Assembly: GCF_022829445.1 (NCBI RefSeq)
Contig: NZ_JAKSXY010000106.1
Location: 1 to 64,000 of the forward strand
Source of the DNA: Methylobacterium sp. J-068
Lineage (GTDB): Bacteria; Pseudomonadota; Alphaproteobacteria; Rhizobiales; Beijerinckiaceae
DNA: 64,000 nucleotides
Reading direction: 5' to 3'
This document shows, piece by piece, positions 7,349 through 48,249 of this stretch. Each line of letters begins with the position of its first letter. Position 1 is the first letter of the stretch. The notes under the pieces were generated by a model. That model saw only the letters and a program-made list of their open reading frames with translations. It was not told where the DNA came from and searched no databases. Both the position numbers and the translations under genes were made by a program.

Positions 7349-9664
7349 GTGACCGAGCCGCCCTCGATGCCACGCTCCGTCGCGAGGGCGCTTCGGCTGA
7401 TCGCCCTGCATCCGTCCGTGCGCGGCATCGAGAGCCACTTCGACGCCGCCACCGGCGTGACGGACGCCGTGGTCCGGATCGATGCCCACCTCCCGTCCAG
7501 GTGGCGGGTCCGTGGTCATTCCGACAACGGTGTGCTGGCCATCGAACCAGTCTCCATAAGGTTCACGCCGGATTACCCCCTGCGGGAGCCCTACATCGTC
7601 CTGCGAGCGGATTTTGACCGCAGCCATCCCCATCTTCAGCCCCGGGGGCCGAACTTCCCTCCGGAGCCTTGCCTCCTGTTCGGCTCGGTGCGTGAGCTCC
7701 TGCAATCCCGAGATATAATCGGGGTCATCGACCAGCTCGTGGAATGGATCGGTCGGGCAGCGCTCGTTCGGCTCAACGATCCCGTCGGCGGTTGGGAGAT
7801 AACCCGACGCGACGGGATCCACGACTTGGTCATCCTGAATTCCGGCTGGGTCCGTTCATTGGCCGGTCGCGACGGCGGATGCGACGGTTTCGGTGCAGGT
7901 TACGCGGCGACCCGTGAAAACGGCGCGCCCGAGACCTATCGGGTCTTGCTGTCGGACATACGTCACGGCTTGTCCGAGAACGATTGCCGTTGGTCAGGCC
8001 AGGTCGTCTCCGACTCGGAGCGATACGGGTTCGCGCTTGCGCTCGTGGCATGGTCAGGCCGAACCCCATCGGGGCAACCTTTCATCGCGGCCAGCTACCT
8101 GCCGGAGACCGTCGTCGACGTCGCTTCGCTTCATGCCCGCGCGCATGCGCTCGGTTGCGGCGATCAACTGCGTGCCAAGCTCGACCTCCTGCAACGCAGG
8201 ATGCGTGGAAAGACGAGCCGCGCGGCGCAACCCTGCATCATCATCCTGCTGGCGCGGCGGCCGTTCAACCTCACGGGTGGTCACTCCCCTATCGAGATCT
8301 GCCCGTACCTGATCGAACTCTTCGGAAACGACGAACTCGGGCCTACGAGCCACAAGCCGGTCCGTCTCGTCGCGCCACACGACCAGGTTTCGCCGAACCT
8401 CCTGCGAGAAGCCTCCGGCGAGGACGGCGCCGGATCGATGCGGTGGACGCTACTCGGATGCGGCAGCGTGGGATCCAAGATCGCCACGCACATGATGCGA
8501 TGCGGCCGAGGCCCTTCAAGGCTCGTCGATACCGCGCCGATGCGGCCACATAATTATGCCCGGCACGCCCTGTTCCCGATGAACGTCTCTGAACAGCACC
8601 AGGGCGTCAACAAGGCATCGCTCCTCGCTTCCAGCCTCGTCGGGTTCACCGATGGCAAGATGGCTCTCGCTGCCATCGCCGCCGACATCCCCATGGCGAT
8701 GGGCGATCCGGCGAAGGCCGGAGCGGTGTTCGGGACAGAAGCGGATTTCGTCGTGAATGCGACCGGCTCCCTGGTGGTGCGCGAAGCCTTGTCGCTCCCG
8801 CAGGTCACAGTCATCCGGCCGAGATGCGTCGAGACCTGCCTGCTCGGTGCCGGTCGCCTGGCGTACATGGCCGTGGAGGGTCCGGCTGCCAATCCGTCTG
8901 TCGCGGACCTTGCCGCCGAGGCCTATCGCATTCTCGCCGCCGACAACGTCACGGCCGCTGCCGTTTTCGGACCCGAGGCCGAGGCAACCCGGATCTCGAT
9001 CGGTCAGGGGTGCTCCTCGCTGACCTTTCCAATGACGGACGCCCATCTTTCGGCGATGACCGCTCCCATAGCGGTCGCGCTGGGCAAGCTGCACGCGACC
9101 GGCTTGCCCATGGCCGGCGGCGAGATCCTTATCGGGCTCGGTGCGGACGATGGCCTCGGCCAGAGCTGGATCCGGCAGCCGGTCCCTCCATGGACGGTCG
9201 TCGAGACCGCCTCGGAACGTGGCCCTGGCGTCCGTGTGAGTGCACGGGTCGACGCCTCCATCGCGCGTGAGGTCGCCGCGCGGCCCGGCAGCGAGACCGG
9301 GGGGATCATCGTCGGCCGCTACTCGGACGTCACCGACACGTTCCATGTCGTGGATGTGCTGTCTGCCCCTCCGGACAGCCGCTTCTCTGCGGATGAATTC
9401 GTGCTCGGCATCGACGGGTTGTCGGAGCGCATCGATGGCCTGGTCGAGCGGAACGGAGGCGCCCTGTATCCGCTCGGGACCTGGCACAATCATCTCGTTA
9501 CCAGCGGTCACTCGGCGAAGGATCTCGCGACGGCGCTGAAGCTCGCGGCCGTGCAAATATTCCCGCTGTTGATGCTGATCCACACGCCCGGCGGCTACCG
9601 CACCCTCGTCACTGAATTCATCGAGCATCGGCCCGCGGGTGGCCCGCTCGGGGAGGCCGCCTGA
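7349..9664 (+). CDS. E2-E1-JAB fusion protein (ubiquitin-like conjugation)
   Basis: About 771 residues from a GTG at 7349 (tgagg 11 bases ahead); ATG 7367 is the alternative. The frame runs back to 7247 into the previous gene, but that part is an Arg-rich overlap. Three catalytic modules are seen. Residues about 15-135 are an E2-like fold with candidate Cys108 in EPCLLFGS. Residues about 365-610 are a ThiF/E1 Rossmann unit (LLGCGSVGSKIA). Residues about 625-755 are a JAB/JAMM peptidase with Glu in ETGGIIVGRY and TWHNHLVTSGHSAKD, one residue shorter than the usual HxH-x7-S-x2-D spacing. One chain could thus activate, transfer and remove a ubiquitin-like tag. No tag protein gene is visible nearby. 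Confidence 0.88.
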   Translation: MTEPPSMPRSVARALRLIALHPSVRGIESHFDAATGVTDAVVRIDAHLPSRWRVRGHSDNGVLAIEPVSIRFTPDYPLREPYIVLRADFDRSHPHLQPRGPNFPPEPCLLFGSVRELLQSRDIIGVIDQLVEWIGRAALVRLNDPVGGWEITRRDGIHDLVILNSGWVRSLAGRDGGCDGFGAGYAATRENGAPETYRVLLSDIRHGLSENDCRWSGQVVSDSERYGFALALVAWSGRTPSGQPFIAASYLPETVVDVASLHARAHALGCGDQLRAKLDLLQRRMRGKTSRAAQPCIIILLARRPFNLTGGHSPIEICPYLIELFGNDELGPTSHKPVRLVAPHDQVSPNLLREASGEDGAGSMRWTLLGCGSVGSKIATHMMRCGRGPSRLVDTAPMRPHNYARHALFPMNVSEQHQGVNKASLLASSLVGFTDGKMALAAIAADIPMAMGDPAKAGAVFGTEADFVVNATGSLVVREALSLPQVTVIRPRCVETCLLGAGRLAYMAVEGPAANPSVADLAAEAYRILAADNVTAAAVFGPEAEATRISIGQGCSSLTFPMTDAHLSAMTAPIAVALGKLHATGLPMAGGEILIGLGADDGLGQSWIRQPVPPWTVVETASERGPGVRVSARVDASIAREVAARPGSETGGIIVGRYSDVTDTFHVVDVLSAPPDSRFSADEFVLGIDGLSERIDGLVERNGGALYPLGTWHNHLVTSGHSAKDLATALKLAAVQIFPLLMLIHTPGGYRTLVTEFIEHRPAGGPLGEAA

Positions 9665-10464
9665 TGTTGCATCTTGACCGCTACACCTTGAACGCGCGCG
9701 TCCTGCCGATGCTCGTCGTTGCCATACCCTTGGTTCTGGCGGCCTATCCCTGGGTACCGTCCGAGGCGTTCGCGAAGGATGGATGGGGCGGCCTGGCGGC
9801 AAAGTGGGTGACGACTGGGGCCTGCGCTACCTTGCTCGCAACCGCCCTGTCCTTCGTGCCTCGGGCCTTCGGGACGCGCCTGGAGGAAAGGCTCTGGCGC
9901 GAATGGGGTGGCGCGCCAGCCACGGCCTATCTTCGCTATGCTCATCCGGAACTCGACGCGCGCCAGACCTTGGCGCTGCACATGAAGATCGCTGCACTCG
10001 ATCCAAGCCTCCATGTGCCGAGCGCACAGGAGGAAGCCAGCGACCCTGCCGCAGCGGACCAGTGCTACGCCGGCATGGTCCGTATGCTACGTGCGAGAAC
10101 CTGGGGTCCCAAGAACTTCCCCATGCTGTTCGATGAAAACGTGAGTTATGGATTCCGTCGCAACCTCTTGGCGATGAGGCCGTATGGGATCCTGACCACC
10201 CTGATCGGTATGGGGTCGGGCGCCGCAGCGATTTGGTTCGGGCACCCCGTCTGGCCGGTCGTCGCGTTGTCCGCCCTCGTCGGCATGTTCATCGTCGTAA
10301 ACGGTACGAATGACCTCCGTCGGCAAGCCGACAGGTACACTCGGCGCCTATTCGAGACCGTCGACCTTCTAAAGCCGCCGACGAAGACGAAGGATGCCGG
10401 AACCCCAACGCGAAAGAAGGCCGGAACGGGGGGGCGTGGCGGAACTGGTCAGGCTACCGCCTGA
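9664..10464 (+). CDS. Multi-pass membrane protein of the E2-E1-JAB operon
   Basis: A 266-residue protein whose ATG overlaps the stop of the E2-E1-JAB gene by one base, so translation is probably coupled. Two hydrophobic pairs are seen: residues about 13-32 and 46-66, then about 170-190 (ILTTLIGMGSGAAAIWFG) and 193-213. Between them is a roughly 100-residue soluble loop; the C-terminus is basic and Lys/Gly-rich. I recognise no family with certainty. By position it could be the membrane effector or the target of the conjugation proteins, in the way small membrane proteins act in other defence operons. Confidence 0.7.
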   Translation: MLHLDRYTLNARVLPMLVVAIPLVLAAYPWVPSEAFAKDGWGGLAAKWVTTGACATLLATALSFVPRAFGTRLEERLWREWGGAPATAYLRYAHPELDARQTLALHMKIAALDPSLHVPSAQEEASDPAAADQCYAGMVRMLRARTWGPKNFPMLFDENVSYGFRRNLLAMRPYGILTTLIGMGSGAAAIWFGHPVWPVVALSALVGMFIVVNGTNDLRRQADRYTRRLFETVDLLKPPTKTKDAGTPTRKKAGTGGRGGTGQATA

Positions 10465-10560
10465 TCCGCCTACCCTTATTCACTGGGCCTGGCGCCAGGA
10501 TGATATCACTGCCCTGCACGGACCGATTTAAGATCCGGCGTTGAACTTGCGTGAGGAGGC

Positions 10561-10594
10561 CCGGAGGGAGGGGCTCGATAGCCCCTCCCTCCGG
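10561..10594. terminator. Perfect hairpin between convergent genes
   Basis: A 15-bp stem without mismatch (ccggagggaggggct / agcccctccctccgg) and a cgat loop lies between the end of the membrane-protein gene (10464, plus) and the end of the second recombinase (10604, minus). There is no T-run on either side, so it may act as a bidirectional block to transcription or simply stabilise 3' ends. Confidence 0.6.
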
Positions 10595-10603
10595 TCGACT
10601 GGT

Positions 10604-12196
10604 TCAAGCGAGGACAGGCGTCTTACGGCCAATGACGGCCTCTGGATGGATCCGCCTGCGAGTGGCGTGATCCGTTGATCGGGTCCGCTCCCTCCGTCGC
10701 CGCTCGACCTGACCCGGGGGCTCCCGCGGGGGCAGGCCCCGGGGTACTACGACCTCGATCGTGGAGGGGACCCTGACGGCGAAGGAGTGGGCCGCCTTCA
10801 CACCGTGCGACCACGCCAGGGCATCGGCCGCCGCCTCCTGCCCTTCCAGGGTCCACTGGCCGTAGATCTTCACCGCGGTCTGGACCGACATGCCCAGCAG
10901 GTCGGCCGCGGCCCTGACATCGACCCGGCCGATCCTAAGCCATGTCGCCGCCGTGTGGCGCAGCGTGTGACGCACGACCTCCGCGTCGAGGCCGGCGTCG
11001 GCGACGACCGCTTCCCAGATCCACACCGGGGCCGACGCGTAGGGCTCACCGTCCGGACGGGACACGACGGCCGAGATCCCGGCGGCGAGATCGGACTTCC
11101 GCCACCCCCCCATCGTCGAGGCAACCTTGGGGGCGATCCGCGACGTCATCCGCGGCTTGCCCTCGCTGGGGTCCAACCCGAAGCCGCGCCGGTGGATGAA
11201 GCGGCCCTCCACGTCGATGCAGCCGCCATCCGCCGAACATTCCCAGCGGAGTTCCCTGAGTGCCTCGTCCCGGGTGCCGGTGTACAGACCAACGAAGAGG
11301 TACCGCCGCAACGCCTTGCGGTTGGTAATGGTCTGCGGATCACGATACGCGTAGCGCCACACCTTCCTGCCGCGCGGGCCCATGACCAACTCGCGCTTCC
11401 AAGCGCCCGTGTCGTTGTCCCAGATGCGACCGCGGATGGCCCAGTACATCCGGGCTACCTCCGGTCGCCGCAACCACCGCGTCCGCCCCGGGCCCTGCGC
11501 CGGCACCTCCACGTTGGGATGCCAAGCGAGCGTATGCTCTCCAGCGTAGAGGTTCACCGCCTTGCGGAGGAAGCAGATGTCCTCCCGCGCGGAGCTCGGA
11601 CTGGCGTTCGGCGCATCGGGGTCGTCGTCCAGATAGCGCGCGTCGCGCTGGTCGGTTCGCCACTCGATGTATTCGAGGAGCCGGGTCGTGGTGAGGTCCT
11701 TGAGCGTCTCGTCCTTAAAGAAGGTCGCCAGCGATTTGATACGCGTCACCAGCTGGCGATACTTCTTCCAGACCCGGGCCTTTTTCTTGGCGGCGGCGGT
11801 ACGAAGGGACGTCTTGCGCGGGGCTGGCGGCTTGCCGGGCGGCCGTGCGGCGTCGAGAAGGTGGTTGAGCGTCGCCGCGACCGGGACCATGCGTGGGGCG
11901 ACGATGCCCCGCTCCCGCGCTTCCTTCTGAAGCTTGTAGAGATCGAGGACCCTCTCGGCCTTCTTCCGCTGTGACTCGGGCTGACGCGTCGACACCTCCG
12001 CCCTGCCGTCGCGTATGTACAACGTGATCTTCGTGGGGTCCGTCCTGGATTTGCGCGGCACCAAGCGGGGGCCCTTCGAGGGTGGCCCGGGCTTGTTGTC
12101 CGGCTCTGGGATCGCCGCCGCCGCGGTCATCAACGCGACGCGCACGTCATCCTCGGCGCGCTCAAAAGCGGCCCGTTGCATCTTCTCTCGCTTCAT
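10604..12196 (-). CDS. Second tyrosine recombinase
   Basis: A 530-residue protein with the tyrosine recombinase set: Arg in GLYTGTRDEALRELRW, HxLRH in VRHTLRHTAATWL, and the nucleophile in AVKIYGQW. The N-terminal 150 residues are Lys/Arg-rich with a helical region (KKKARVWKKYRQLVTRIKSLATFF) likely to bind DNA. It is not beside either attachment repeat; it sits mid-element with an excisionase-like gene just upstream on the same strand. It may act on its own sites (a nested element), resolve multimers, or be left from an earlier integration. Confidence 0.88.
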   Translation of the reverse strand: MKREKMQRAAFERAEDDVRVALMTAAAAIPEPDNKPGPPSKGPRLVPRKSRTDPTKITLYIRDGRAEVSTRQPESQRKKAERVLDLYKLQKEARERGIVAPRMVPVAATLNHLLDAARPPGKPPAPRKTSLRTAAAKKKARVWKKYRQLVTRIKSLATFFKDETLKDLTTTRLLEYIEWRTDQRDARYLDDDPDAPNASPSSAREDICFLRKAVNLYAGEHTLAWHPNVEVPAQGPGRTRWLRRPEVARMYWAIRGRIWDNDTGAWKRELVMGPRGRKVWRYAYRDPQTITNRKALRRYLFVGLYTGTRDEALRELRWECSADGGCIDVEGRFIHRRGFGLDPSEGKPRMTSRIAPKVASTMGGWRKSDLAAGISAVVSRPDGEPYASAPVWIWEAVVADAGLDAEVVRHTLRHTAATWLRIGRVDVRAAADLLGMSVQTAVKIYGQWTLEGQEAAADALAWSHGVKAAHSFAVRVPSTIEVVVPRGLPPREPPGQVERRRRERTRSTDHATRRRIHPEAVIGRKTPVLA

Positions 12197-12217
12197 CGTA
12201 ATTCAAGCCTACCTGTG

Positions 12218-12233
12218 CCGGCACGCGTGCCGG
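12218..12233. promoter_or_regulatory. 16-bp palindrome upstream of the second recombinase
   Basis: CCGGCACGCGTGCCGG is a perfect palindrome 22 bp before the recombinase start. Its core CACGCGTG recurs in the palindrome at 13268-13287 inside the neighbouring gene. It may be a regulator or recombinase site, or a weak attenuator between the two genes. Confidence 0.4.
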
Positions 12234-12295
12234 TGCGTCGGAAGGCGGACACGGGGCGGTTTAACCGCCAAGTCTGAGCGCCCCGTGCCCGCCGC

Positions 12296-13519
12296 TTACC
12301 GTCCGGAACCGCCGTTTGCGGCTGTCGTGACGGGACCTTTGGCAGCGCGTCTCGAACGCGCGCGCCCTCCGCCGAGCCTCTGTGCCTCGGCAATCTTCAT
12401 CTGCAACGTGGGAAACGCGGACATCTCGTCCGCCTCCGGCTGCTTGGACTTCTCGCCGACACCATCCCCACCCATCCGACGGATCGCCATCGGGGTGGTG
12501 AAGAACTTGCCGGCCACCTTCGTGATCGCCAGCGCGCCATCGCGGCCGGCTGTCCTGAGGGTGTTGGTGGTGATCGGGCCGTCCGGCCAGAACAGGGCGG
12601 CGGCCTCGGGCAGGGTCAGCAGCTCGTCATCGTTCCACTCCTCGCTCCGCGGCCGGTCAGCAATCCGTTGGGGTCGCTTCGGCAAAGGCCTGGCCGGCGT
12701 CGTCACGCGAGGCAAACCGGTTTCGATCCGCGAGTCAAAGCCCAGGGAATGACCGGCCGCCACGACGGGCTCGTCGTCTGGGTCTGCCGATCCAAAGGAC
12801 CGCTCGCAATCCTTGCGGTCCTTTGCCTGGAATGCTTTTCCGCCCTGGTCGTCGATGACGATGTGATGCTCGGAAGCCGATGGCATTCCTGGGAAAAGCT
12901 CCAGTTGAAGCAGCGCGTCCGCCGGCATCGGAGCGTCGTCCCGACGATCCTTTGATGATCCTTCCTCCACGTCGTCGCCTGCAAAGGATCGCTCAATCGA
13001 TGAGTCGAGGCTTTCCAGGGATTTCGGGCCGGAAACTAAGTATTCTGCCACCGGCAGGATGTGGTCCCTCATCGACCCTGGGTGTGCCTCGCCGACCGGA
13101 AGTCGGTCGAAACCGGGACTCGACCGGTGCGTGCCGCCGAACGAGTCCAGGGCCGGCGCCAAGGGCCGGGGGCTGGCCGGGGGACTACCTCCGCCACCCT
13201 GGACAACCGCGCCGGATCCGATCGGAGCGGTCCCCTGTCCTACCGGGTCCACGGGCGGGAGCCCTGGGGATGCCACGCGTGGCATCCTCTGGACGGCATC
13301 CCTTGGGATGCCGTCCATGGCTGGCTTAGCCTGCCCTTCACTGCCACCGGCCTTGAACGTGTCATGCCCGGACAGGACGCCCGGAGGCCTGGCGCTGGTA
13401 TTCGGCCTCGGACGTGCCGCGGCCGCAACCGCCTCCGCCGGTCTCGGCTTGCCCTTGGCGGGCGATCGGACGGGCGGAGCTTGATGCCACCCGAAGTAGC
13501 GGATGATGGCCGTGAACAT
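12296..13519 (-). CDS. Excisionase-like protein with long disordered region
   Basis: A 407-residue protein from ATG with a strong ribosome site (aaggaggttcaccc). The first 250 residues are Pro/Gly/Ser-rich and probably disordered. Residues about 298-350 (LLTLPEAAALFWPDGPITTN, then TLRTAGRDGALAITKVAGKFFTT, PMAIRRM) look like the helix-turn-helix of MerR/Xis-type proteins that read a condition into DNA binding. It lies 99 bp upstream of the second recombinase on the same strand, the usual place for an excisionase or recombination directionality factor. Function is inferred from that. Confidence 0.6.
   Translation of the reverse strand: MFTAIIRYFGWHQAPPVRSPAKGKPRPAEAVAAAARPRPNTSARPPGVLSGHDTFKAGGSEGQAKPAMDGIPRDAVQRMPRVASPGLPPVDPVGQGTAPIGSGAVVQGGGGSPPASPRPLAPALDSFGGTHRSSPGFDRLPVGEAHPGSMRDHILPVAEYLVSGPKSLESLDSSIERSFAGDDVEEGSSKDRRDDAPMPADALLQLELFPGMPSASEHHIVIDDQGGKAFQAKDRKDCERSFGSADPDDEPVVAAGHSLGFDSRIETGLPRVTTPARPLPKRPQRIADRPRSEEWNDDELLTLPEAAALFWPDGPITTNTLRTAGRDGALAITKVAGKFFTTPMAIRRMGGDGVGEKSKQPEADEMSAFPTLQMKIAEAQRLGGGRARSRRAAKGPVTTAANGGSGR
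13268..13316. repeat. Two adjacent palindromes inside the excisionase-like gene
   Basis: GGATGCCACGCGTGGCATCC (13268-13287) is a perfect 20-bp palindrome. Three bases on, 13291-13316 has 12-bp arms GGACGGCATCCC / GGGATGCCGTCC around TT. Both contain the word GGCATCC/GGATGCC. They sit in the sequence coding for the low-complexity part of the protein. Confidence 0.6.
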
Positions 13520-40802: not shown

Positions 40803-41606
40803 TCAAGGGCGGACGGCCGGCGTCTCGATGGGCAGCGGGCTCGCGCGATCCATCAGGTAGCGCTCCAGAGCGACGAATTCCGGCGCGCCATAGGCGAAGG
40901 GCTCGGCCCGCATCCCTGTCATGCAGTTGCGCAGGCGCCGCTGGACCGATCCGACGCCCTGCCATTCGAGGCGATAGAGCGGGTACCCGGTCGGATGCCC
41001 CTGCGGGATCGGGGCGGCGCCGAGCCGGCGGCCGGGATGGTCGTCGTGGCAGGCGGCACAGGAGAAGCCGAGCTGACCCATGCGCCGCGTGAACAGCGCC
41101 CGGCCCGCTTCCCGTGCCGGGGCGAGGTGCGGGTCGTCGGGCGGCACGATCGGCAGCCCGCGCGATTGGGCGGCGACGTAGGCCGAAAGCCCGAGAAGCT
41201 CACCGCTCTCGTAGGGGAAGGGAGGCGCTCCCTGGTGTCTCCGGCGACAGGCGTTGATCCGCCCCTGAAGGTCGATCGCGCCGCCGCTCTCGACGTCGTA
41301 GGCCGGGTAGCGGGCGGCGACGCCGCGCATGCTCGCATCCGCCGCGCCGTGGCAACCGGCGCAGGCGGGACGATCCGCGGCGGGCGCCTTCGCCCAGAGG
41401 TCCTCGCCCTCCTGCACCCAGAGCAGGCCGGGATTCGCGGTCTCGTCGCGCTGCATCGCCTGGATGGCGGGGCTCATGGTGTCGAAGCCCGAGCGCCGCG
41501 CGGCGGGCGGGATCTCGGTGGGCGGGATCTCGGCGGCCGAAATCCCCGTGGCGTTTCCGGCTCCCGCCAGCGCCAGGCCGAGGGCCAGGGACGCGGCGCG
41601 TCTCAC
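40803..41606 (-). CDS. soxA: SoxA, c-type cytochrome of SoxXA
   Basis: A 267-residue exported protein (signal [24 protein letters not shown]) with two haem motifs, CAGCH and CAACH, hence a dihaem SoxA. The later [25 protein letters not shown] carries the Cys that ligates the active haem in the family. SoxXA joins a sulfur substrate to SoxYZ in the periplasm. Its GTG overlaps the stop of soxZ (GTGA). It is the last gene of the operon. Confidence 0.9.
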
Positions 41607-41923
41607 GTCACCGTCAGCGTGGCGGTCTCGGTCTGCGCGAAACCGTTGTCGCCCCGCCAGACGAAGCTGAGCGTCCCCGTCCGCGTCGCCCGGAGGGTGA
41701 AGGTCAGGTACGGGTTCGCGGCGGTGGCGGGGAAGAGTTCGGCGCGAAACACCGTCTCGCCATCGTAGAGGCAGGTGAAGTCCGTGATGATGTCGCGGGC
41801 CATGATGCGCCCGTCGGCGCCGGGCCGGAAGCCGGTCTCCATCGGATGCGAGATCAGGGTCTTGATCGTCACGACCGCGCCGGCCTCGGCGGTCTTGGGA
41901 ACGTTGATCAGGGTGCGGGCCAT
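41603..41923 (-). CDS. soxZ: SoxZ, sulfur carrier partner
   Basis: A 106-residue protein (TLINVPKTAEAGAVVTIKTLISHPMETGFR; MARDIITDFTCLYDGETVFRAEL) of the SoxZ beta-sandwich family. It pairs with SoxY to hold the sulfur intermediate. It has no signal peptide, as usual, and is exported with Tat-signal SoxY. It lies 6 bp after soxY. Confidence 0.92.
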   Translation of the reverse strand: MARTLINVPKTAEAGAVVTIKTLISHPMETGFRPGADGRIMARDIITDFTCLYDGETVFRAELFPATAANPYLTFTLRATRTGTLSFVWRGDNGFAQTETATLTVT

Positions 41924-41929
41924 GGCGGA

Positions 41930-42406
41930 TCAGCCCTCCAGGCAGGCGGCGAGGGTGACGATGGCGTCGGCCGTCGTCGACCAGTAGCGGCCGTCGCTGG
42001 TCTCCGCGATGGCGGTGATGCGCTGCGTGTCGGCGAGCCGGATGCGGGTGGTGAGGGCGGCGCGCCCGGACAGGGGTCCCAGATGCGCCGTGATCACGTT
42101 GGGCTGCGGGTTCCGGTCGTTGAACACGGCGATGCGGCGGACATGGTCCTCCGGGCTCATGGGGCTGTCCACCGTGACCGTGATGGTGACGGCGTTGCCG
42201 TTCTCGACCAGGGGCGGCAGGTCGAGATGGATGCGGCCCGGCCGGATCTCGGCATCCCCGGCAAAGCGCCGGATGGCCTCGGCCGTGCTCTCCGTGCGGG
42301 TCGCGGCCTCGGCCGCGACGGGGCGCAGGGCGACAACCGCGAGCGTGCCGGTCCCGAGGGCGAGAACGCCGCGGCGGCTCGGACGATGAGGCTCATCGAG
42401 GATCAC
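41930..42406 (-). CDS. soxY: SoxY, sulfur-binding carrier
   Basis: A 158-residue protein with a Tat-type signal (HRPSRRGVLALGTGTLAVVALRPVAAEA). The body has the SoxY fold (RIHLDLPPLVENGNAVTITVTVDSPMSPEDHVRRIAVFNDRNP). Classical SoxY ends in GGCGG, whose Cys carries the substrate; here the end is TLAACLEG. The Cys is kept but the flexible glycines are not, so the swinging arm differs. The ATG overlaps the soxX stop. Confidence 0.88.
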   Translation of the reverse strand: MILDEPHRPSRRGVLALGTGTLAVVALRPVAAEAATRTESTAEAIRRFAGDAEIRPGRIHLDLPPLVENGNAVTITVTVDSPMSPEDHVRRIAVFNDRNPQPNVITAHLGPLSGRAALTTRIRLADTQRITAIAETSDGRYWSTTADAIVTLAACLEG

Positions 42407-42918
42407 GGCGCCGACCTTTCCGTCGTGGTGTCGCGCAAGGTGACGAGGAAGGCGACGACGTCCTCGATGGCCTGCGCCTCCAGCACCGGCCGGCCGGCCC
42501 AGGCCGCGCCGACGCGCGTGGTGCCGGACAGCGTGTAATAGGAGGGCATGATGGTGTCCGGGTTCAAGACCCGGCCGTCGACGAGGCGCAGGCGGAGCGC
42601 GCCCGCCGACCGCCGTCCACCGACCCCGGAGAGGTCGGGGCCGATGTCACCGGGGAACCGCTCCTCCGGGAACGGCCCGGCATGGCACAGGAGGCAGAGG
42701 CCCTTCGTACGATCGATGACGAGCGCGCGACCCCGGACAGGATCGCCCGGCGTCTCGGTCAGGGCCTCGGGAATCTCACCGCCGATCACGGTCACGGGGC
42801 GCAGCCGGCCGGCATCCCCCTCCCCCGCCGAAACGCCCGAAATCAGGATCGCACAGCCGATCCAGGCCCATGCCACGGCGCGCCTCGCTCGAAGACGCGT
42901 CACCCGAAGGCGCGTCAC
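42403..42918 (-). CDS. soxX: SoxX, monohaem cytochrome c
   Basis: A 171-residue protein from GTG 42918, which overlaps the FCSD stop (GTGA); a second in-frame GTG 15 bp on (42903) arises from a direct duplication. The signal region is WAWIGCAILISGVSA. Haem motif CLLCH, with the Met ligand in NPDTIMPSYY, and the end IEDVVAFLVTLRD are as in SoxX. It partners SoxA. Confidence 0.88.
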   Translation of the reverse strand: MTRLRVTRLRARRAVAWAWIGCAILISGVSAGEGDAGRLRPVTVIGGEIPEALTETPGDPVRGRALVIDRTKGLCLLCHAGPFPEERFPGDIGPDLSGVGGRRSAGALRLRLVDGRVLNPDTIMPSYYTLSGTTRVGAAWAGRPVLEAQAIEDVVAFLVTLRDTTTERSAP

Positions 42919-44165
42919 CCGAAGACCTGCCGGGTGATGGTGCGGTACCAATCGGCGGCGTACAGCGCCTCCTGCTCCCGCAGGGACTGCGGCGCGTCGA
43001 TGGGGCTGGTCCCGCCGGCGCCCTCGACATCGCCGAGCACGCCGCCGGCCGGGTGGTAGACGCCCGCGACGGAGATGCCGTAGCCGGGGGCCACGAGGCT
43101 GTAGCAGGTGTTGATCAGCTTGGGCGCCTCGGGCTGGCGCCCGGCGAGGAGGTCGATCACCGCGTCCGCGCAGACCCTGGCCTGCGCGTTGGCCGAGAAG
43201 GCGGATTTCGGCATCGCCCCGGCGATGGCCGCGTCGCCGATGACGTGGATGTTCGGCACGAGCCGGGATTCGAAGGTGACCGGGTCGATCGGGCACCAGC
43301 CGCTGCGATCGGCCACGCCCGCGATCGAAGCGATCCGGCCCGCGCGCTGGGGTGGGATGATGCAGGCGACATCCGCCTTGTACTCGGAGAAGTCGGTGCG
43401 CACGATCATCCCCGCCGGGTCGACGGCACTGACCTGCCCGCCCTCCGCCAGCGGCACGTATTCGAGTTGGGTCGGATAGAGCGTCTTCCAGGCCGACTGG
43501 AACAGGCGCTGCTTCGAGAACGTGTCCTTGGCATCGAGCAGGATCAGCTTCGCGCGCGGCTTGCGGGTCTTCAGCACGTGGGCGATCAGACTGGCGCGCT
43601 CGTAGGGGCCGGGCGGGCAGCGATAGGGGTTGGCCGGCGCCGACAGCACCACCGTGCCGCCCTCCGGCATCGCGGCGAGCTGGCGCGCGAGGAGGAGCGT
43701 CTGCTCGCCCGCCTTCCAGGCATGGGGCATGCGGCTCGCGGCCGCCTCGTCGTAACCCGGGATGGCATCGAAGCGCAGGTCGATGCCCGGCGAGAGCACG
43801 AGGCGGTCATACGCGAGGGTGCTGTCGTCGGAGAGCGTGACCCGGTGCGCGGCCACATCGATGCCCGTGGCGGCGGCATGCACCACCCGGATGCCGGCGC
43901 GGGCCAGGGCCTCGTAGCCGAAGCGTTGCGCTTCCATCGGCTGAAGCCCGGCGATGACCTCGTTGCTGAAGGGACAGGACACGTAGGTCGGGTTGACCTC
44001 GACCAGGGTCACGTCGAGGCCGCCGCCATGGAGCGCCCGCGCGGCGGTGGCGCCGCCGAAGCCGCCGCCGATCACCACGACCTTGGGCGTGGCCCGCGCG
44101 AGCGCCGGCCGGGCCAGGGCGAGCGCCGCCCCGGTCGCGAGGAGCGTGCGGCGCGTCGTGCTCAC
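42915..44165 (-). CDS. soxF: Flavocytochrome c sulfide dehydrogenase flavoprotein (SoxF/FccB)
   Basis: A 416-residue protein with a Tat signal (TTRRTLLATGAALALARPALA), FAD motif VVVIGGGFGGATAARAL and the redox cysteines in YVSCPFSNEVIAG and LINTCYSLVAPGYG. The C-terminal domain (ALYAADWYRTITRQVFG) is that of FCSD. It oxidises sulfide or a Sox intermediate in the periplasm and passes electrons to a cytochrome c, here the gene directly upstream. Its GTG overlaps that gene's stop. Confidence 0.9.
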   Translation of the reverse strand: MSTTRRTLLATGAALALARPALARATPKVVVIGGGFGGATAARALHGGGLDVTLVEVNPTYVSCPFSNEVIAGLQPMEAQRFGYEALARAGIRVVHAAATGIDVAAHRVTLSDDSTLAYDRLVLSPGIDLRFDAIPGYDEAAASRMPHAWKAGEQTLLLARQLAAMPEGGTVVLSAPANPYRCPPGPYERASLIAHVLKTRKPRAKLILLDAKDTFSKQRLFQSAWKTLYPTQLEYVPLAEGGQVSAVDPAGMIVRTDFSEYKADVACIIPPQRAGRIASIAGVADRSGWCPIDPVTFESRLVPNIHVIGDAAIAGAMPKSAFSANAQARVCADAVIDLLAGRQPEAPKLINTCYSLVAPGYGISVAGVYHPAGGVLGDVEGAGGTSPIDAPQSLREQEALYAADWYRTITRQVFG

Positions 44166-44452
44166 GGCGGCCCCCGACGTGACAGGTAGGCCGCGATCGC
44201 CCGGCTCTCGTCCTCCGAAAAACCCTTGGCGATGCGGCCCATCACGCTGGCGGGGCGTGCGCCGGAGCGGTACTCGGCGAGCGCCGCCGCGATCTCGGCC
44301 TCCGGACGCCCGTCGAGCGCCCCCATCGCCGCGCCCTCGGCATGGCAGCCGGCGCACGAGGAGGCGCCCGGCGGAGAACGCAGGTCCGCCGCCGGGGCCG
44401 TTCCGACCGGCCACGCCAGCAGGCAGGCCGCGAGCGCGCGGAGACGCCTCAC
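44162..44452 (-). CDS. Class I cytochrome c, FCSD partner
   Basis: A 96-residue protein starting at GTG 44452, which overlaps the stop of the molybdenum subunit gene. It has a signal (RRLRALAACLLAWPVGTAPAA), haem motif CAGCH and a Met ligand in ASVMGRIAKGF, followed by SEDESRAIAAYLSRR. Place and size fit the haem subunit of FCSD (FccA/SoxE), although it could equally take electrons from the molybdenum enzyme upstream. Confidence 0.85.
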   Translation of the reverse strand: MRRLRALAACLLAWPVGTAPAADLRSPPGASSCAGCHAEGAAMGALDGRPEAEIAAALAEYRSGARPASVMGRIAKGFSEDESRAIAAYLSRRGPP

Positions 44453-46644
44453 ACCCGGCGCAGATCGGTGTTCTTCACCGGCATCTGGCGCACGCGCTTG
44501 CCGGTGGCGGCGGAGATGGCATTCAGCACGGCGGGAGCCGCCACCGCGATGGTGGGCTCGCCGACACCGCCCCAGAAGCCGCCGGACGGCATCACGATGG
44601 TCTCGACCACCGGCATCGCATCGAGGCGCATCACCGGGTAGGTGTCGAAGTTCGTCTGCTCGATGCGTCCGTCCTTGACCGTGCATTCCTGGTAGAGCGC
44701 CGCCGAGAGGCCGTAGACGAAGGAGCCGGCGATCTGCGCGTCGATCTGCTGTGGATTGAGCGCATGGCCCGGATCGGTGGCCGCGACGATGCGGTGGACC
44801 TTGACCGTGCCGTCATCGCCCACCGAGACCTCGGCCACGGCCGCCACGTAGGAGCCGAAGCCCATCATCTGGGCCAGCCCCCTGTGGATTCCCGCCGGGG
44901 GCTCGGTGCCCCAGCCGGCCTTGTCCGCCACCGCCTGCAGCACGGCCCGGTGCTTGGGGTGCTTTTCCATCAGCTTCAGCCGGAAGGCGAGCGGGTCCTG
45001 CCCCGCCGCCTGGGCGAGCTCGTCCATGAAGCATTCGAGGTAGATGGCGTTGGGGTTCATGTTCACGCCGCGCCAGAAGCCCGGCGGCACGTGCGGGTTG
45101 CGCATGGCGTGATCGACCAGGATGTTCGGGATCGCGTAGCCGATCGCCGCCTCCGCCCCGCCGGGGTTGAGGCCCTGGAACACCACCGGGTCCTTGCCGT
45201 CCACCATCCGGTTCGGCGCCACCGAGACCAGGATCGACTGGCCGGAGATGCGCATATGCAGCCCGGTGACGTTGCCGTCGGCGTCGAGGCCCGCGCGCAT
45301 CCGGCACTGGGTGATCGGGTGGTAGCGCCCGTGGGTCATGTCCTCCTCGCGGGTCCAGATCAGCTTGATCGGGGTCCCGGGCATCTCGCGCGCGATGAGG
45401 ACGGCCTGGCGCAGCCAGTCGTGGGTGGCGCCGCGCCGGCCGAAGCCGCCGCCGAGCAGGAGCTTGTAGACGTCGCACTTGGCGGCGGAGAGGCCGGCGG
45501 CCTCCGCGACGGCGGCCAGCGCCGCCTCGCCGTTCTGGGTCGGCGCCCAGGCCTCGCAGCGCTCCGGCGTCCAGCGCACCGTGGCGTTCATCGGCTCCAT
45601 GGTGGCGTGGTTCTGGAACGGCACGCCGTAGGTCGCCTCCACGACCTTGGCCGCGCCCTTCAGGGCCGCCCCGACGTCGCCGCCCTTGTTGCCCACATAG
45701 GCATCCTCGGCGTCGAGCCCCTCGCGCAGCATCGCGGCGATGCTCTCGCTCGAGACCTTGCCGTTCGGGCCGTCGTCCCAGACGATCGGCAGAGCCTCGA
45801 CGGCGGTCTTGGCGCGCCAGAATGTGTCGGCGATGACCGCCACGCCGGAATCGCCCACCGCGACGACCTTCCGCACGCCGGGCATGCCCTCGACCGCCTT
45901 GGCGTCGAAGCTCTTCACGGTGCCGCCGAAGACCGGGCAGTCGCGGATCGCCGCGTTCAGCAGGCCCGGCATCGTGAGGTCGATGCCGTAGATCTGGCTG
46001 CCATCGGTCTTCTCGACGGTGTCGAGGCGTTTGACCGGCTTGCCGGCGATGGTCCAGTCCTTGGGATCCTTGAGGACGATGTCCTTCGGCGGGGTGATCC
46101 TGGCCGCCGCCATCGCCACCGCGCCGAAGGTGGTGGTCCGGCCGGAGGCCGCGTGGCTGATCACGCCCTTCTCGACCCGGCACGCGTCCGGGGCGACGCC
46201 CCAGCCCTGGGCGGCGGCCTCGACCAGCATGATGCGGGCGGCGGCCCCGCCCTTGCGGACGTAGTCCTGCGATTCGCGGATGCCGCGGCTGCCGCCGGTG
46301 CCGAAATCGCCCCAGACCCGGCCGCGGGCGACGTTCTGACCCGGCGTCGGATACTCGGTGGTCACCTTGGACCAGTCGCAGCCGAGTTCCTCGGCCACGA
46401 GCTGGGCGAGGCCGGTGAGCGTGCCCTGGCCCATCTCGGAGCGGGCGATGCGGATCACCACGGTCTCGTCGGGCTTGATCACCACCCAGGCGTTGACCTC
46501 GGGCGTGAGCGCGGGCGCGGCCCCTTGCGCGGCGGCATCGCCCACGAAGGGGACGTGGAAGCCGAGGCTGAGGCCGCCGGCGGCCGCGACCGCACCGGCG
46601 ACGAAGGCGCGGCGGGAGGGGGACTTGCTGGTGGAGATCGTCAT
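44449..46644 (-). CDS. Molybdenum hydroxylase, large subunit (IorB/xanthine dehydrogenase-like)
   Basis: A 731-residue protein from ATG with gaggagagag ahead. It has a Tat signal (SPSRRAFVAGAVAAAGGLSLGF), unlike cytoplasmic xanthine dehydrogenases, so it acts in the periplasm. Molybdopterin-binding motifs: SEMGQGTLTGLAQLVAEELG, LLLGGGFGRRGATHDWLRQA, MRNPHVPPGFWRGVN, and GGVGEPTIAVAAPAV with the catalytic Glu. It resembles isoquinoline 1-oxidoreductase and nicotinate/aldehyde oxidases with separate [2Fe-2S] subunit and no FAD subunit. Being in one operon with FCSD and Sox genes is unusual; its substrate cannot be read from sequence. Confidence 0.88.
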   Translation of the reverse strand: MTISTSKSPSRRAFVAGAVAAAGGLSLGFHVPFVGDAAAQGAAPALTPEVNAWVVIKPDETVVIRIARSEMGQGTLTGLAQLVAEELGCDWSKVTTEYPTPGQNVARGRVWGDFGTGGSRGIRESQDYVRKGGAAARIMLVEAAAQGWGVAPDACRVEKGVISHAASGRTTTFGAVAMAAARITPPKDIVLKDPKDWTIAGKPVKRLDTVEKTDGSQIYGIDLTMPGLLNAAIRDCPVFGGTVKSFDAKAVEGMPGVRKVVAVGDSGVAVIADTFWRAKTAVEALPIVWDDGPNGKVSSESIAAMLREGLDAEDAYVGNKGGDVGAALKGAAKVVEATYGVPFQNHATMEPMNATVRWTPERCEAWAPTQNGEAALAAVAEAAGLSAAKCDVYKLLLGGGFGRRGATHDWLRQAVLIAREMPGTPIKLIWTREEDMTHGRYHPITQCRMRAGLDADGNVTGLHMRISGQSILVSVAPNRMVDGKDPVVFQGLNPGGAEAAIGYAIPNILVDHAMRNPHVPPGFWRGVNMNPNAIYLECFMDELAQAAGQDPLAFRLKLMEKHPKHRAVLQAVADKAGWGTEPPAGIHRGLAQMMGFGSYVAAVAEVSVGDDGTVKVHRIVAATDPGHALNPQQIDAQIAGSFVYGLSAALYQECTVKDGRIEQTNFDTYPVMRLDAMPVVETIVMPSGGFWGGVGEPTIAVAAPAVLNAISAATGKRVRQMPVKNTDLRRV

Positions 46645-46654
46645 GGCTCTCTCC

Positions 46655-47116
46655 TCAACCGGCCTGGCCGCCATCGGCCGCGAGCTTGATGCCGGCGAGA
46701 ACCCGGTTGTAGGTGCCGCAGCGACAGATGTTGGTGATCTCGGTGCGGATCTCTGCCTCGCTCGGGTGCGGGTTCTGCGCCAGCAGCGCCGCCGAGGCCA
46801 TGATCATGCCGGACTGGCAGAAGCCGCATTGCGGCACGTCGAGTTCGGCCCAGGCCTTCTGCACCGGGTGCGAGCGGTCCTTCGACAGGCCCTCGATGGT
46901 GACGATCTTCTGGTCCGGCGTCAGGCTGGAGACCGGCATGGAGCAGGAGCGCACCGCCGCGCCGTCGATATGCACCGTGCAGGCGCCGCACTGGGCGATG
47001 CCGCAGCCGTACTTCGTGCCCGTGAGACCCGCCTGCTCGCGGATGACCCAGAGGAGGGGCGTGTCCGGCTCGGCCTCGACCTCACGGATCGCGCCGTTCA
47101 GGTTCAGACGAATCAT
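46655..47116 (-). CDS. Molybdenum hydroxylase, 2x[2Fe-2S] subunit
   Basis: A 153-residue protein with the plant-type cluster motif GTKYGCGIAQCGACTVHIDG and the second cluster CGFCQSGMIMASAALL plus NICRCGTYNRVLAGI. It passes electrons from the molybdenum centre to a cytochrome, since no FAD subunit is encoded beside it. It has no signal of its own; export with the Tat-bearing large subunit is known for this type. It is first in the operon. Confidence 0.92.
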   Translation of the reverse strand: MIRLNLNGAIREVEAEPDTPLLWVIREQAGLTGTKYGCGIAQCGACTVHIDGAAVRSCSMPVSSLTPDQKIVTIEGLSKDRSHPVQKAWAELDVPQCGFCQSGMIMASAALLAQNPHPSEAEIRTEITNICRCGTYNRVLAGIKLAADGGQAG

Positions 47117-47505
47117 GCGTTCCTACCCCGATCTTCCGTCGCGACCTGCGCGCGACCCGAAGGCGCAGATGCAGGCCCGGTATTTGGAATCGTTGTACGG
47201 TGCGGATGTGCGGCGCGTCCACTGCGGCAAAGCGCATTCAATGTTCATTTTTCAAACCGGACGACGCGCGGGTCACGCGGCGTTGCCGGGACCGGTCTTG
47301 CCGGGCCGGCCCCGCGGACGGACCGCGTCATGGCCCGGCGCGGGCGTCACCTTGCCCCGCCCGATCGCGCGGGTCGGGTCGGGAGCGAAGGAAACATCTT
47401 CCTGCCGCCAAGCCCGGAGCGATGTGCTAACGGATTGCGCGTCGCAGGCGGCCGGACATGCGCCGTGCGGAGGTGCCGCCCCGGCGCAGGAAAGGCGATT
47501 TCGAC
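47117..47505. promoter_or_regulatory. Divergent promoter region, molybdenum-Sox operon / Crp-Fnr gene
   Basis: About 390 bp between the two divergent starts. The AT-rich piece at 47238-47260 (attcaatgttcatttttcaaa) is the best promoter candidate for the minus strand (TTGAAA near 47254). No clear Fnr-type TTGAT-N4-ATCAA box is seen. The divergent regulator probably acts here. Confidence 0.45.
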
Positions 47506-48249
47506 ATGAGCTTCGCAGCCGGCGCCGATCTCGGCCTGCTTATCCGGAAGCTGAAATCCATCATCACCGTCTCGGACGCGGAGCGCAGCGCCATCGAGCG
47601 CCTTCCGATGACCCGTCGGCAGCTCCCGGCGCGTCAGGACATCGTGCGGGACGGCGATCATCCCACGCAGTGCTGCCTGATGCTGGAGGGCTGGGCCTTC
47701 CGCTACAAGCTGCTGGACGAGGGCAAGCGTCAGATCCTCTCGGTGCATATTCCGGGCGACATCCCCGACCTGCAGAGCCTCCACCTGCCGGTGATGGACC
47801 ACAACCTCGGCGCGCTGACCGCCTGCACCGTGGCGTTCATTCCCCACGAGGCGTTGCGCGAGCTGACCCGCACCCATCCCGGCATCACCGCCGCCCTGTG
47901 GCGCGACACGCTGGTGGATGCGGCGATCTTCCGCGAATGGATGACGAATATCGGCCGCCGCTCGACCTCGGGCCGGATCACCCACCTGTTCTGCGAGCTC
48001 TACCTCAAGCTCCACGCCATGGGGCTGGCCGAGAACCATGCCTGCGAGATGGCCCTGACCCAGGGCGACATCGCCGACGCGATCGGCGTCTCGAACGTCC
48101 ACGTCAACCGCGTCCTGCAGGAACTGCGCGGCGAGGGGCTGCTCACGCTCCAGGGCCAGCGCCTCGTGATCCACGATTGGGCGGGCCTGACGAAGCGCGC
48201 GGAGTTCGATCCGGCCTACCTTCACCTGAAGCGCGCGCCCGCCCCATGA
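47506..48249 (+). CDS. Crp/Fnr-family regulator
   Basis: A 247-residue protein (ATG 47506; aaagg ahead). An N-terminal cyclic-nucleotide-binding fold (about 25-140: RQDIVRDGDHPTQCCLMLEGWAFRYKLLDEGKRQILSVHIPGDIPDLQSL) is followed by a winged helix (about 165-235: CEMALTQGDIADAIGVSNVHVNRVLQELRGEGLL). It lacks the four-Cys cluster of Fnr. It is divergent to the molybdenum-Sox operon and is its most likely regulator. Its stop overlaps the start of the next small gene. Confidence 0.87.
   Translation: MSFAAGADLGLLIRKLKSIITVSDAERSAIERLPMTRRQLPARQDIVRDGDHPTQCCLMLEGWAFRYKLLDEGKRQILSVHIPGDIPDLQSLHLPVMDHNLGALTACTVAFIPHEALRELTRTHPGITAALWRDTLVDAAIFREWMTNIGRRSTSGRITHLFCELYLKLHAMGLAENHACEMALTQGDIADAIGVSNVHVNRVLQELRGEGLLTLQGQRLVIHDWAGLTKRAEFDPAYLHLKRAPAP

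Follow-up and report, generated by a model that had tools for sequence, protein, structure and literature searches.

The window analysed here comprises 64,000 nucleotides (positions 1 to 64,000) of contig NZ_JAKSXY010000106.1 from Methylobacterium sp. J-068, an alphaproteobacterium of the Rhizobiales. On its minus strand, at 40803-47116, lies an eight-gene operon in which a molybdenum hydroxylase predicted to belong to the xanthine-oxidase family is combined with a flavocytochrome c sulfide dehydrogenase (FCSD) and the sulfur oxidation (Sox) genes soxX, soxY, soxZ and soxA. An earlier interpretation made from the letters alone, hereafter the sequence-only reading, had delimited this operon with the same coordinates and gene families and had stated that neither soxB nor soxCD is part of it; both statements are confirmed by the identities of the eight genes, given here in order of transcription:

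46655..47116, minus strand: [2Fe-2S] subunit of the xanthine-oxidase-family hydroxylase, 153 amino acids (Pfam Fer2_2 and Fer2)
44449..46644, minus strand: molybdopterin-binding catalytic (Mo) subunit, 731 amino acids, twin-arginine type N-terminus (Pfam MoCoBD_1 and MoCoBD_2)
44162..44452, minus strand: monohaem cytochrome c, 96 amino acids, probable haem partner of FCSD (best Protein Data Bank match 5n1t_B, E 4e-11)
42915..44165, minus strand: FCSD flavoprotein, 416 amino acids (Pfam FCSD_central and FCSD-flav_bind)
42403..42918, minus strand: soxX, monohaem cytochrome, 171 amino acids (NCBIfam TIGR04485, 74.3 bits, cut-off 61)
41930..42406, minus strand: soxY of the AACIE-arm type, 158 amino acids, C-terminus AACLEG (NCBIfam TIGR04487, 208.2 bits, cut-off 172)
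41603..41923, minus strand: soxZ, 106 amino acids (NCBIfam TIGR04490, 78.1 bits, just above the cut-off of 76; Pfam SoxZ)
40803..41606, minus strand: soxA, dihaem cytochrome, 267 amino acids, with the cysteine of an RRLRNC motif (NCBIfam TIGR04484, 215.8 bits, cut-off 110; 166 bits to SoxA 1h31)

Five of the seven gene junctions are four-base overlaps, as the sequence-only reading had held, but all five read GTGA and none the ATGA that it had also named; soxY and soxZ are separated by 6 bases. The Mo subunit most likely starts at 46644, 10 bases past the stop of the [2Fe-2S] gene and preceded by the purine-rich GAGGAGAG, while an alternative ATG at 46674 would overlap that gene. The GC content at third codon positions lies between 0.87 and 0.95 across the operon and thus supports all eight genes as coding; relatives of solved structure were matched for the Mo subunit, SoxA, SoxY, FCSD and the cytochrome.

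The redox proteins of the operon retain their ligands. Ligand counts refer to ungapped columns in aligned sequences covering at least 60% of the query, with seven distant loci (L102, L104-L109; L numbers denote loci and G numbers genomes) set aside. In SoxX, Cys75, Cys78 and His79 (CxxCH) and Met124 are invariant (97/97), as are Cys82, Cys85, Cys183 and Cys186 (93/93) and Cys120 and Cys228 (92/92) in SoxA, one cysteine of which ligates the active haem. With TIGR04485 and TIGR04484 both over cut-off, the two proteins are predicted to form a SoxXA with a cysteine-ligated active haem. The FCSD flavoprotein (455 bits to 5n1t_A) shows invariant Cys183, Cys291 and Cys354 (59/59), the first and last of which we take to be the redox pair, and the small cytochrome c, at 25.7 bits just under its Pfam cut-off of 27, has an invariant CxxCH (Cys33, Cys36, His37) and Met71 (46/46). 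By its flavin and central domains, conserved cysteine pair and haem subunit the protein is classified as an FCSD, with the small cytochrome c probably serving as its haem partner.

Membership of the hydroxylase in the xanthine-oxidase family is predicted from its molybdenum-cofactor-binding domains, from a [2Fe-2S] subunit with eight invariant cysteines (93/93 aligned sequences) and from the G-x-G-E-P motif of the Mo subunit (invariant in 38/38), the glutamate of which is presumably the catalytic residue. An AlphaFold2 model of the Mo subunit (predicted local distance difference test score 84.8) is most similar to the Gluconobacter membrane-bound aldehyde dehydrogenase 8gy3_C, with a template modelling score of 0.86 and a Z of 44.4 over 673 residues, the next entry reaching 37.2. 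The Gluconobacter oxydans enzyme likewise has a small [2Fe-2S] subunit, in addition to a multihaem cytochrome subunit. The likeness lies in the fold of the Mo subunit, whereas identity is 28-30%, the enzyme of the operon is coupled to Sox carriers and the multihaem cytochrome has no counterpart. Carbon oxidation is the chemistry to be expected, given that the nearest solved structure belongs to an aldehyde dehydrogenase.

A feature on which the sequence-only reading had not remarked is the arm of SoxY, AACLEG, which carries Cys155 in place of GGCGG. Cys155 is invariant in 99 of 99 aligned relatives and Ala154-Cys155 in 22 of 22 aligned sequences. Against the model of the true thiosulfate carrier (TIGR04488, cut-off 125) the protein scores 99 bits and falls below the cut-off. 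Arms were compared at 108 loci, namely the window, loci where a related Mo hydroxylase accompanies a SoxY match, and two (L037, L052) whose sox genes lie on a contig lacking the hydroxylase; 106 were readable after L165, where a contig end cuts the arm, and L185, where the match is another SoxY-like protein, had been dropped. None of the 106 ends in GGCGG: in 105 an Ala, Gly, Pro or Ser is followed by Ala-Cys, and one has Ser-Gly-Cys. SoxY proteins linked to SoxB, by comparison, end in GGCGG in all seven cases examined (L060-L066), one of which, taken as a check of the models, lies above the TIGR04488 and below the TIGR04487 cut-off. The SoxY of the window is a SoxY-related protein of the AACIE-arm type and not the thiosulfate carrier. 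The name of TIGR04487, already attached to the gene in the same order in plasmid records of Methylobacterium sp. NMS14P and Neorhizobium galegae VafX2, covers the arm only; no partner enzyme or function was found with it, and no mention of the 'AACIE' arm was found in the open-licence literature. The fused-carrier model TIGR04557 gives the window protein 58.9 bits (cut-off 140), Y and Z being separate genes. Elsewhere in the same genome, on contig C113 (L067, 9393-10367), a fused quinoprotein-dehydrogenase-associated SoxYZ-like carrier matches TIGR04557 with 257.3 bits.

The assembly containing the window (5,113,311 bases, 128 contigs, 100% complete) was searched for further Sox components. 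Neither SoxB (best 123.7 bits, cut-off 550) nor SoxC (best 194 bits, cut-off 420; SoxD was not searched) was found over cut-off, and the single SoxA match is the window's own. The genome thus has no SoxB in a separate complete sox locus, which by the sequence-only reading's own account would have told against it. Compared with the canonical Sox system (SoxXA, SoxYZ, SoxB and SoxCD), the operon shares SoxX, SoxA and SoxZ over their curated cut-offs as well as the haem and cysteine ligands, but differs in a SoxY below the true-SoxY cut-off with an arm of the AACxE type, and in that a xanthine-oxidase-family hydroxylase is present instead of SoxB or SoxC, neither of which is over cut-off in operon or genome. 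It is not a canonical Sox system, as both the GGCGG arm and SoxB are missing. SoxCD is not universal even among true Sox systems.

The association of hydroxylase and altered carrier recurs in relatives. In a class sample of 387 genomes, TIGR04487 was over cut-off in 22, each of which also encodes a Mo hydroxylase with no less than 61% identity to that of the window (in two the match is partial, at contig ends). Among the matches listed, in which short partial hydroxylase matches could be missed, such an enzyme occurs in 32 genomes, the next best place reaching 51%, and TIGR04487 exceeded its cut-off in none of the 355 genomes without one. The resulting table (22/10/0/355) yields a Fisher p of 1.6e-28, which overstates independence because the genomes are related. 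Hydroxylase and SoxY share a contig in 28 of the 32 genomes, and in G078 they are split by contig ends (L037, L113). A second collection, of named loci, was found by hydroxylase alignment and consists of the best 80 of more than 581 loci; 16 with less than 2.6 kb after the Mo subunit were dropped from the counts. At the other 64, soxYZ adjoins the hydroxylase in 62, and all four genes, soxX, Y, Z and A, do so in 58. By organism title the 80 loci comprise 37 from Alphaproteobacteria, 34 from Betaproteobacteria, 8 unassigned and 1 labelled Chitinophagia, and named strains of Methylobacterium, Bradyrhizobium, Bosea and Duganella carry the unit.

A hydroxylase tree of 58 rows gathers the enzymes of the unit in a single branch of 42, with a Shimodaira-Hasegawa-like approximate likelihood ratio test (SH-aLRT) value of 100 and a linked SoxY in 35. 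In pairwise comparisons across 83 loci, divergence of the hydroxylase is correlated with divergence of the other core genes (Mantel r 0.50-0.71, permutations at most 0.19), which fits co-inheritance and is partly expected from shared genome ancestry. A core of six genes recurs in many Alpha- and Betaproteobacteria, and the claim of the sequence-only reading that the consecutive genes form one unit is borne out by this strong conservation of hydroxylase and sox genes in relatives: its observation was right, and the association is more than chance, while its interpretation is supported in part only, as set out below.

No conserved flanking gene was detected by a rough clustering of open frames that might hint at the substrate; only general families recur (ABC ATPases, short-chain dehydrogenases, regulators). 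As no flanking gene is consistently kept, the core genes alone make the unit. Copies are plasmid-borne in Methylobacterium sp. NMS14P and in Neorhizobium galegae, a strong TIGR04487 match was found in none of the five other genomes of the window's genus in a phylum sample, and several named Methylobacterium hold a hydroxylase up to 94% identical to that of the window; together these suggest a compact unit subject to gain, loss and movement between genomes. On the plasmid of Neorhizobium galegae VafX2 (L099, 4740-6921) the hydroxylase lies in two open frames with no gene listed, and this copy may be broken.

The distribution of SoxB itself is mixed. It occurs in 4 of the 22 class carriers over the TIGR04487 cut-off and is lacking in 18, and within the class sample it is independent of the Mo hydroxylase, being present in 5/32 genomes with the enzyme versus 34/355 without (Fisher p 0.35). 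Among 17 further genomes tested from the phylum sample 15 hold SoxB, including all 14 over the TIGR04487 cut-off, of which nine share genus code g4 and four share g380; in four of these 14 the hydroxylase was mapped (L200-L203). A tblastn search with one SoxB query at 141 loci (L033-L066 and L098-L204; the short L001-L032 and L068-L097 as well as L067 were excluded) matched only the seven picked for holding SoxB (L060-L066), and no unit searched includes SoxB. The unit stands without SoxB in many genomes and alongside a separate Sox system in others; for Bosea a complete Sox system has been reported (PMC5894208, in the part available).

The least probable of the explanations considered here is that of an incomplete thiosulfate Sox set completed by SoxB from elsewhere, one of two proposals of the sequence-only reading. 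What speaks for it are the 18 of 36 tested carriers over the TIGR04487 cut-off that hold SoxB elsewhere in the genome, and the account of a freshwater Polynucleobacter genome published in 2012, which, in the portion available, describes three separate SOX clusters and counts one of four genes among them (PMC3308952); the identity of that cluster with the present unit is inferred. According to the same portion, some SOX genes are held in common with Bradyrhizobium and not with the organism's own family, and energy gain from sulfur was then unconfirmed (PMC3308952). Small genomes coded f197 (three were mapped) carry the six-gene core and may belong to Polynucleobacter. Against completion from elsewhere stand the lack of SoxB over cut-off in the window's genome and in 18 of 22 class carriers, the GGCGG-armed SoxY that SoxB has of its own at seven of seven SoxB loci, and the independence of SoxB from the hydroxylase in the class sample. 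For the genome of the window the proposal is rejected, neither SoxB nor SoxC being over cut-off, unless soxB is missed by the assembly; it may apply where SoxB lies elsewhere, as in 15 of the 17 phylum genomes.

FCSD was found in 37 of the 62 named loci with soxY and not found in 25, where some contigs end soon after soxA. Although flavoprotein and cytochrome match 5n1t_A and 5n1t_B, respectively, FCSD is therefore only an optional part of the unit, its position being between hydroxylase and soxX, downstream of soxA, upstream of the [2Fe-2S] gene, or divergent. In an FCSD tree from a quick search only, the divergent copies of Bosea and the copies of f118 located after soxA form a group of six with one FCSD from a SoxB locus (SH-aLRT 100), apart from 43 copies in the 'between' position (SH-aLRT 92) and 11 from Oxalobacteraceae (SH-aLRT 100). 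FCSD thus appears to be optional and to have been acquired more than once, and repeated acquisition, if the tree is taken as it stands, suggests that the unit generates sulfide- or sulfane-level sulfur.

This bears on the other proposal of the sequence-only reading, a pathway in which an organosulfur or heterocyclic compound passes its sulfur to SoxYZ. Here the Mo enzyme would act first, oxidising the free compound, and the sulfide, sulfite or thiosulfate released would pass to SoxXA/SoxYZ and FCSD. The apparently repeated recruitment of a sulfide enzyme agrees with this order of events, as does the best structural relative, which works on free aldehydes. However, without SoxB nothing in the unit frees sulfate from SoxY, a free-sulfide step seems not obligatory given the 25 of 62 named soxY loci where FCSD was not found, and the lack of GGCGG arms is left unexplained, so that the proposal is regarded as rather unlikely, with the sulfide- or sulfane-level sulfur as the part that fits.

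Related hydroxylases also occur outside the unit. Distant Mo hydroxylases (36-50% identity) adjoin SoxYZ with non-GGCGG arms in three groups (L102 and L104, L105-L107, L108-L109), and weak candidates for residues marking the linkage to sox, Met352, Arg515 and a few others, are common to two of these three. In the same stretches a protein like the formylglycine-generating enzyme (PF03781) was observed at L105 (7445-8296), L106 (7424-8347) and L108 (4910-5776). Sox genes are missing around other related Mo hydroxylases (41-46% identity) at each of five such loci that were inspected (L115-L119), of which one belongs to the window's own genome. Enzymes of the xanthine-oxidase family depend on a sulfido ligand on molybdenum. 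A further alternative is that SoxXA, SoxYZ and FCSD would serve the enzyme by supplying or protecting that ligand or by keeping reactive sulfur away. SoxYZ-like carriers do adjoin other periplasmic dehydrogenases (PMC12997753, PMC11237559, as far as available), and published work has suggested a role in maturation or protection for those beside pyrroloquinoline quinone (PQQ) alcohol dehydrogenases. The sox-free hydroxylases of L115-L119 indicate, however, that such a service is not generally needed, and the invariant ligands of SoxA and SoxX point to turnover; we consider this alternative distinctly unlikely.

The carriers of PQQ/lanthanide alcohol dehydrogenases (TIGR04557) resemble the unit in that a Sox carrier stands beside a periplasmic dehydrogenase, but in those systems Y and Z form a fusion and the parts of the sources available name no SoxXA, whereas the unit has separate Y and Z, SoxXA and a Mo hydroxylase (PMC12997753, PMC11237559). 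More broadly, divergent SoxY proteins with changed arms have been described beside dimethyl sulfoxide reductase, tetrathionate reductase and PQQ/lanthanide alcohol dehydrogenases, and co-option was proposed in the portions at hand (PMC11237559, PMC12997753). By analogy these cases would support co-option in general and not that of this Mo hydroxylase; a word search of PMC11237559 found none beginning with 'molybd', 'xanthine' or 'aldehyde'. Nearest to the unit are bins of SAR324 (2016), where, according to the part of the paper available, FCSD is flanked by a SoxY and SoxZ of low identity, further sox subunits were not recovered, and an incomplete Sox complex with 'a novel mechanism' unlike conventional Sox was proposed; an isoquinoline 1-oxidoreductase occurs in the same genomes (PMC4782131). 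Compared by description only, the SAR324 arrangement differs in that the oxidoreductase is not stated to lie beside sox and no SoxX or SoxA is reported in that part (PMC4782131). The part of PMC5371076 available gave no result on methyl mercaptan as a Sox substrate. Already known, then, is the SoxY family name in NCBIfam, while the open-licence literature, in a search that was not exhaustive, yielded no account of SoxXA and SoxYZ coupled to a molybdenum hydroxylase.

SoxXA oxidatively joins a sulfur compound to the SoxY cysteine in Sox systems. For TsdA, of the SoxA family, a cysteine S-thiosulfonate intermediate has been reported (PMC4423706, in the part available). As SoxXA and the SoxY cysteine are intact and SoxB is absent, another enzyme must process the loaded carrier, and the Mo hydroxylase is proposed to act on the adduct because it is the only other enzyme kept throughout. 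Thus, the unit is probably a separate, still uncharacterised sulfur-compound pathway under ordinary sulfur-oxidation gene names, and we infer that it operates as a Sox carrier cycle does, except that another enzyme performs the terminal step. Tentatively preferred, though short of probable, is a periplasmic pathway, complete in itself, for a reduced-sulfur compound that is not thiosulfate, in which SoxXA would load SoxY and the Mo hydroxylase would act on the adduct in replacement of SoxB. In the first step SoxXA would oxidatively attach the substrate, a thiol or a compound resembling one, to Cys155 in the AACxE arm of SoxYZ. In the place of SoxB/SoxCD the Mo hydroxylase would then hydroxylate the carrier-bound molecule, most likely at the carbon next to sulfur, and free an oxidised carbon fragment, with the altered SoxY arm as its putative interface to the carrier. 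Electrons would exit via the [2Fe-2S] subunit, with SoxXA or the small cytochrome as acceptor, and FCSD, where present, would oxidise leftover sulfide or persulfide and so reset the carrier thiol. Put forward with even more reserve is the wider idea of a xanthine-oxidase-family Mo hydroxylase acting on a substrate bound to the SoxY arm, in a Sox-type cycle that may oxidise the carbon side of a C-S compound in many genera of Alpha- and Betaproteobacteria.

A variant of this cycle would have the Mo hydroxylase as a substitute sulfane dehydrogenase that, like SoxCD, oxidises the sulfur on SoxY, with sulfate leaving by hydrolysis or through an unrelated hydrolase. In its favour are the lack of a SoxC over cut-off in the genome and the hydroxylase being, besides SoxXA, the only enzyme that the unit always retains (the 80 named loci were found with it). 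We hold it to be very unlikely, however, as the family of the Mo enzyme differs from that of SoxC, members of the xanthine-oxidase family hydroxylate carbon, and the unit contains no hydrolase.

Several observations weigh against the preferred cycle on the carrier arm. We know of no xanthine-oxidase-family enzyme with a protein-bound substrate. The linkage has exceptions (gene absences by tblastn): at L100 (G055, 9309-12916) soxYZ has gone from between soxX and soxA, with hydroxylase, soxX and soxA open; soxA is missing from the locus in three Methylobacterium species (L126, L127, L128); soxX and soxA are absent at L193, where soxYZ is present; and no sox gene lies near the hydroxylase at L159 and L186. 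A hydroxylase copy is also separated from sox in G247 and G076 (L101, L112), in G076 by its place on another contig. A linked SoxY is lacking in seven of the 42 rows of the unit branch, including two at contig ends, and the Mantel r of Mo subunit and SoxY is only moderate (0.61 versus 0.71 for the [2Fe-2S] subunit). Long branches leave parts of the FCSD tree unsure, and a divergent FCSD may not belong to the unit at all; the frequent SoxB of the phylum carriers given above belongs here as well. The loss of soxYZ at L100 is a natural test of the need for a carrier. In G247, where one hydroxylase copy lacks sox, a more distant hydroxylase stands beside SoxYZ elsewhere in the genome.

In genomes and metagenomes, soxX, soxY, soxZ and soxA are commonly read as thiosulfate oxidation. 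Since the unit bears all four names without SoxB and with a different arm, such calls would be unsafe where it stands without SoxB, as in 18 of the 22 class carriers over the TIGR04487 cut-off. If the preferred mechanism holds, an unrecognised step of the organic sulfur cycle would be represented, and action on an arm-bound substrate would be a third way of working with SoxYZ and, to our knowledge, the first case of a xanthine-oxidase-family enzyme with a substrate bound to a carrier protein.

Some minor observations concern single loci. About 5 kb of other open frames lie between the soxX region and soxY at L190 (10540-15694). Metagenome bins titled Bordetella parapertussis (two), Chitinophaga pinensis and Candidatus Rokuibacteriota contain the hydroxylase (L178, L188, L193, L185), and these titles or the binning may be wrong. 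In the window, a regulator of the Crp/Fnr type is encoded divergently from the operon (47458-48249, plus strand); it was found near the hydroxylase in 3 of 141 loci (L120-L122), all from close Methylobacterium relatives, with 83-86% identity.

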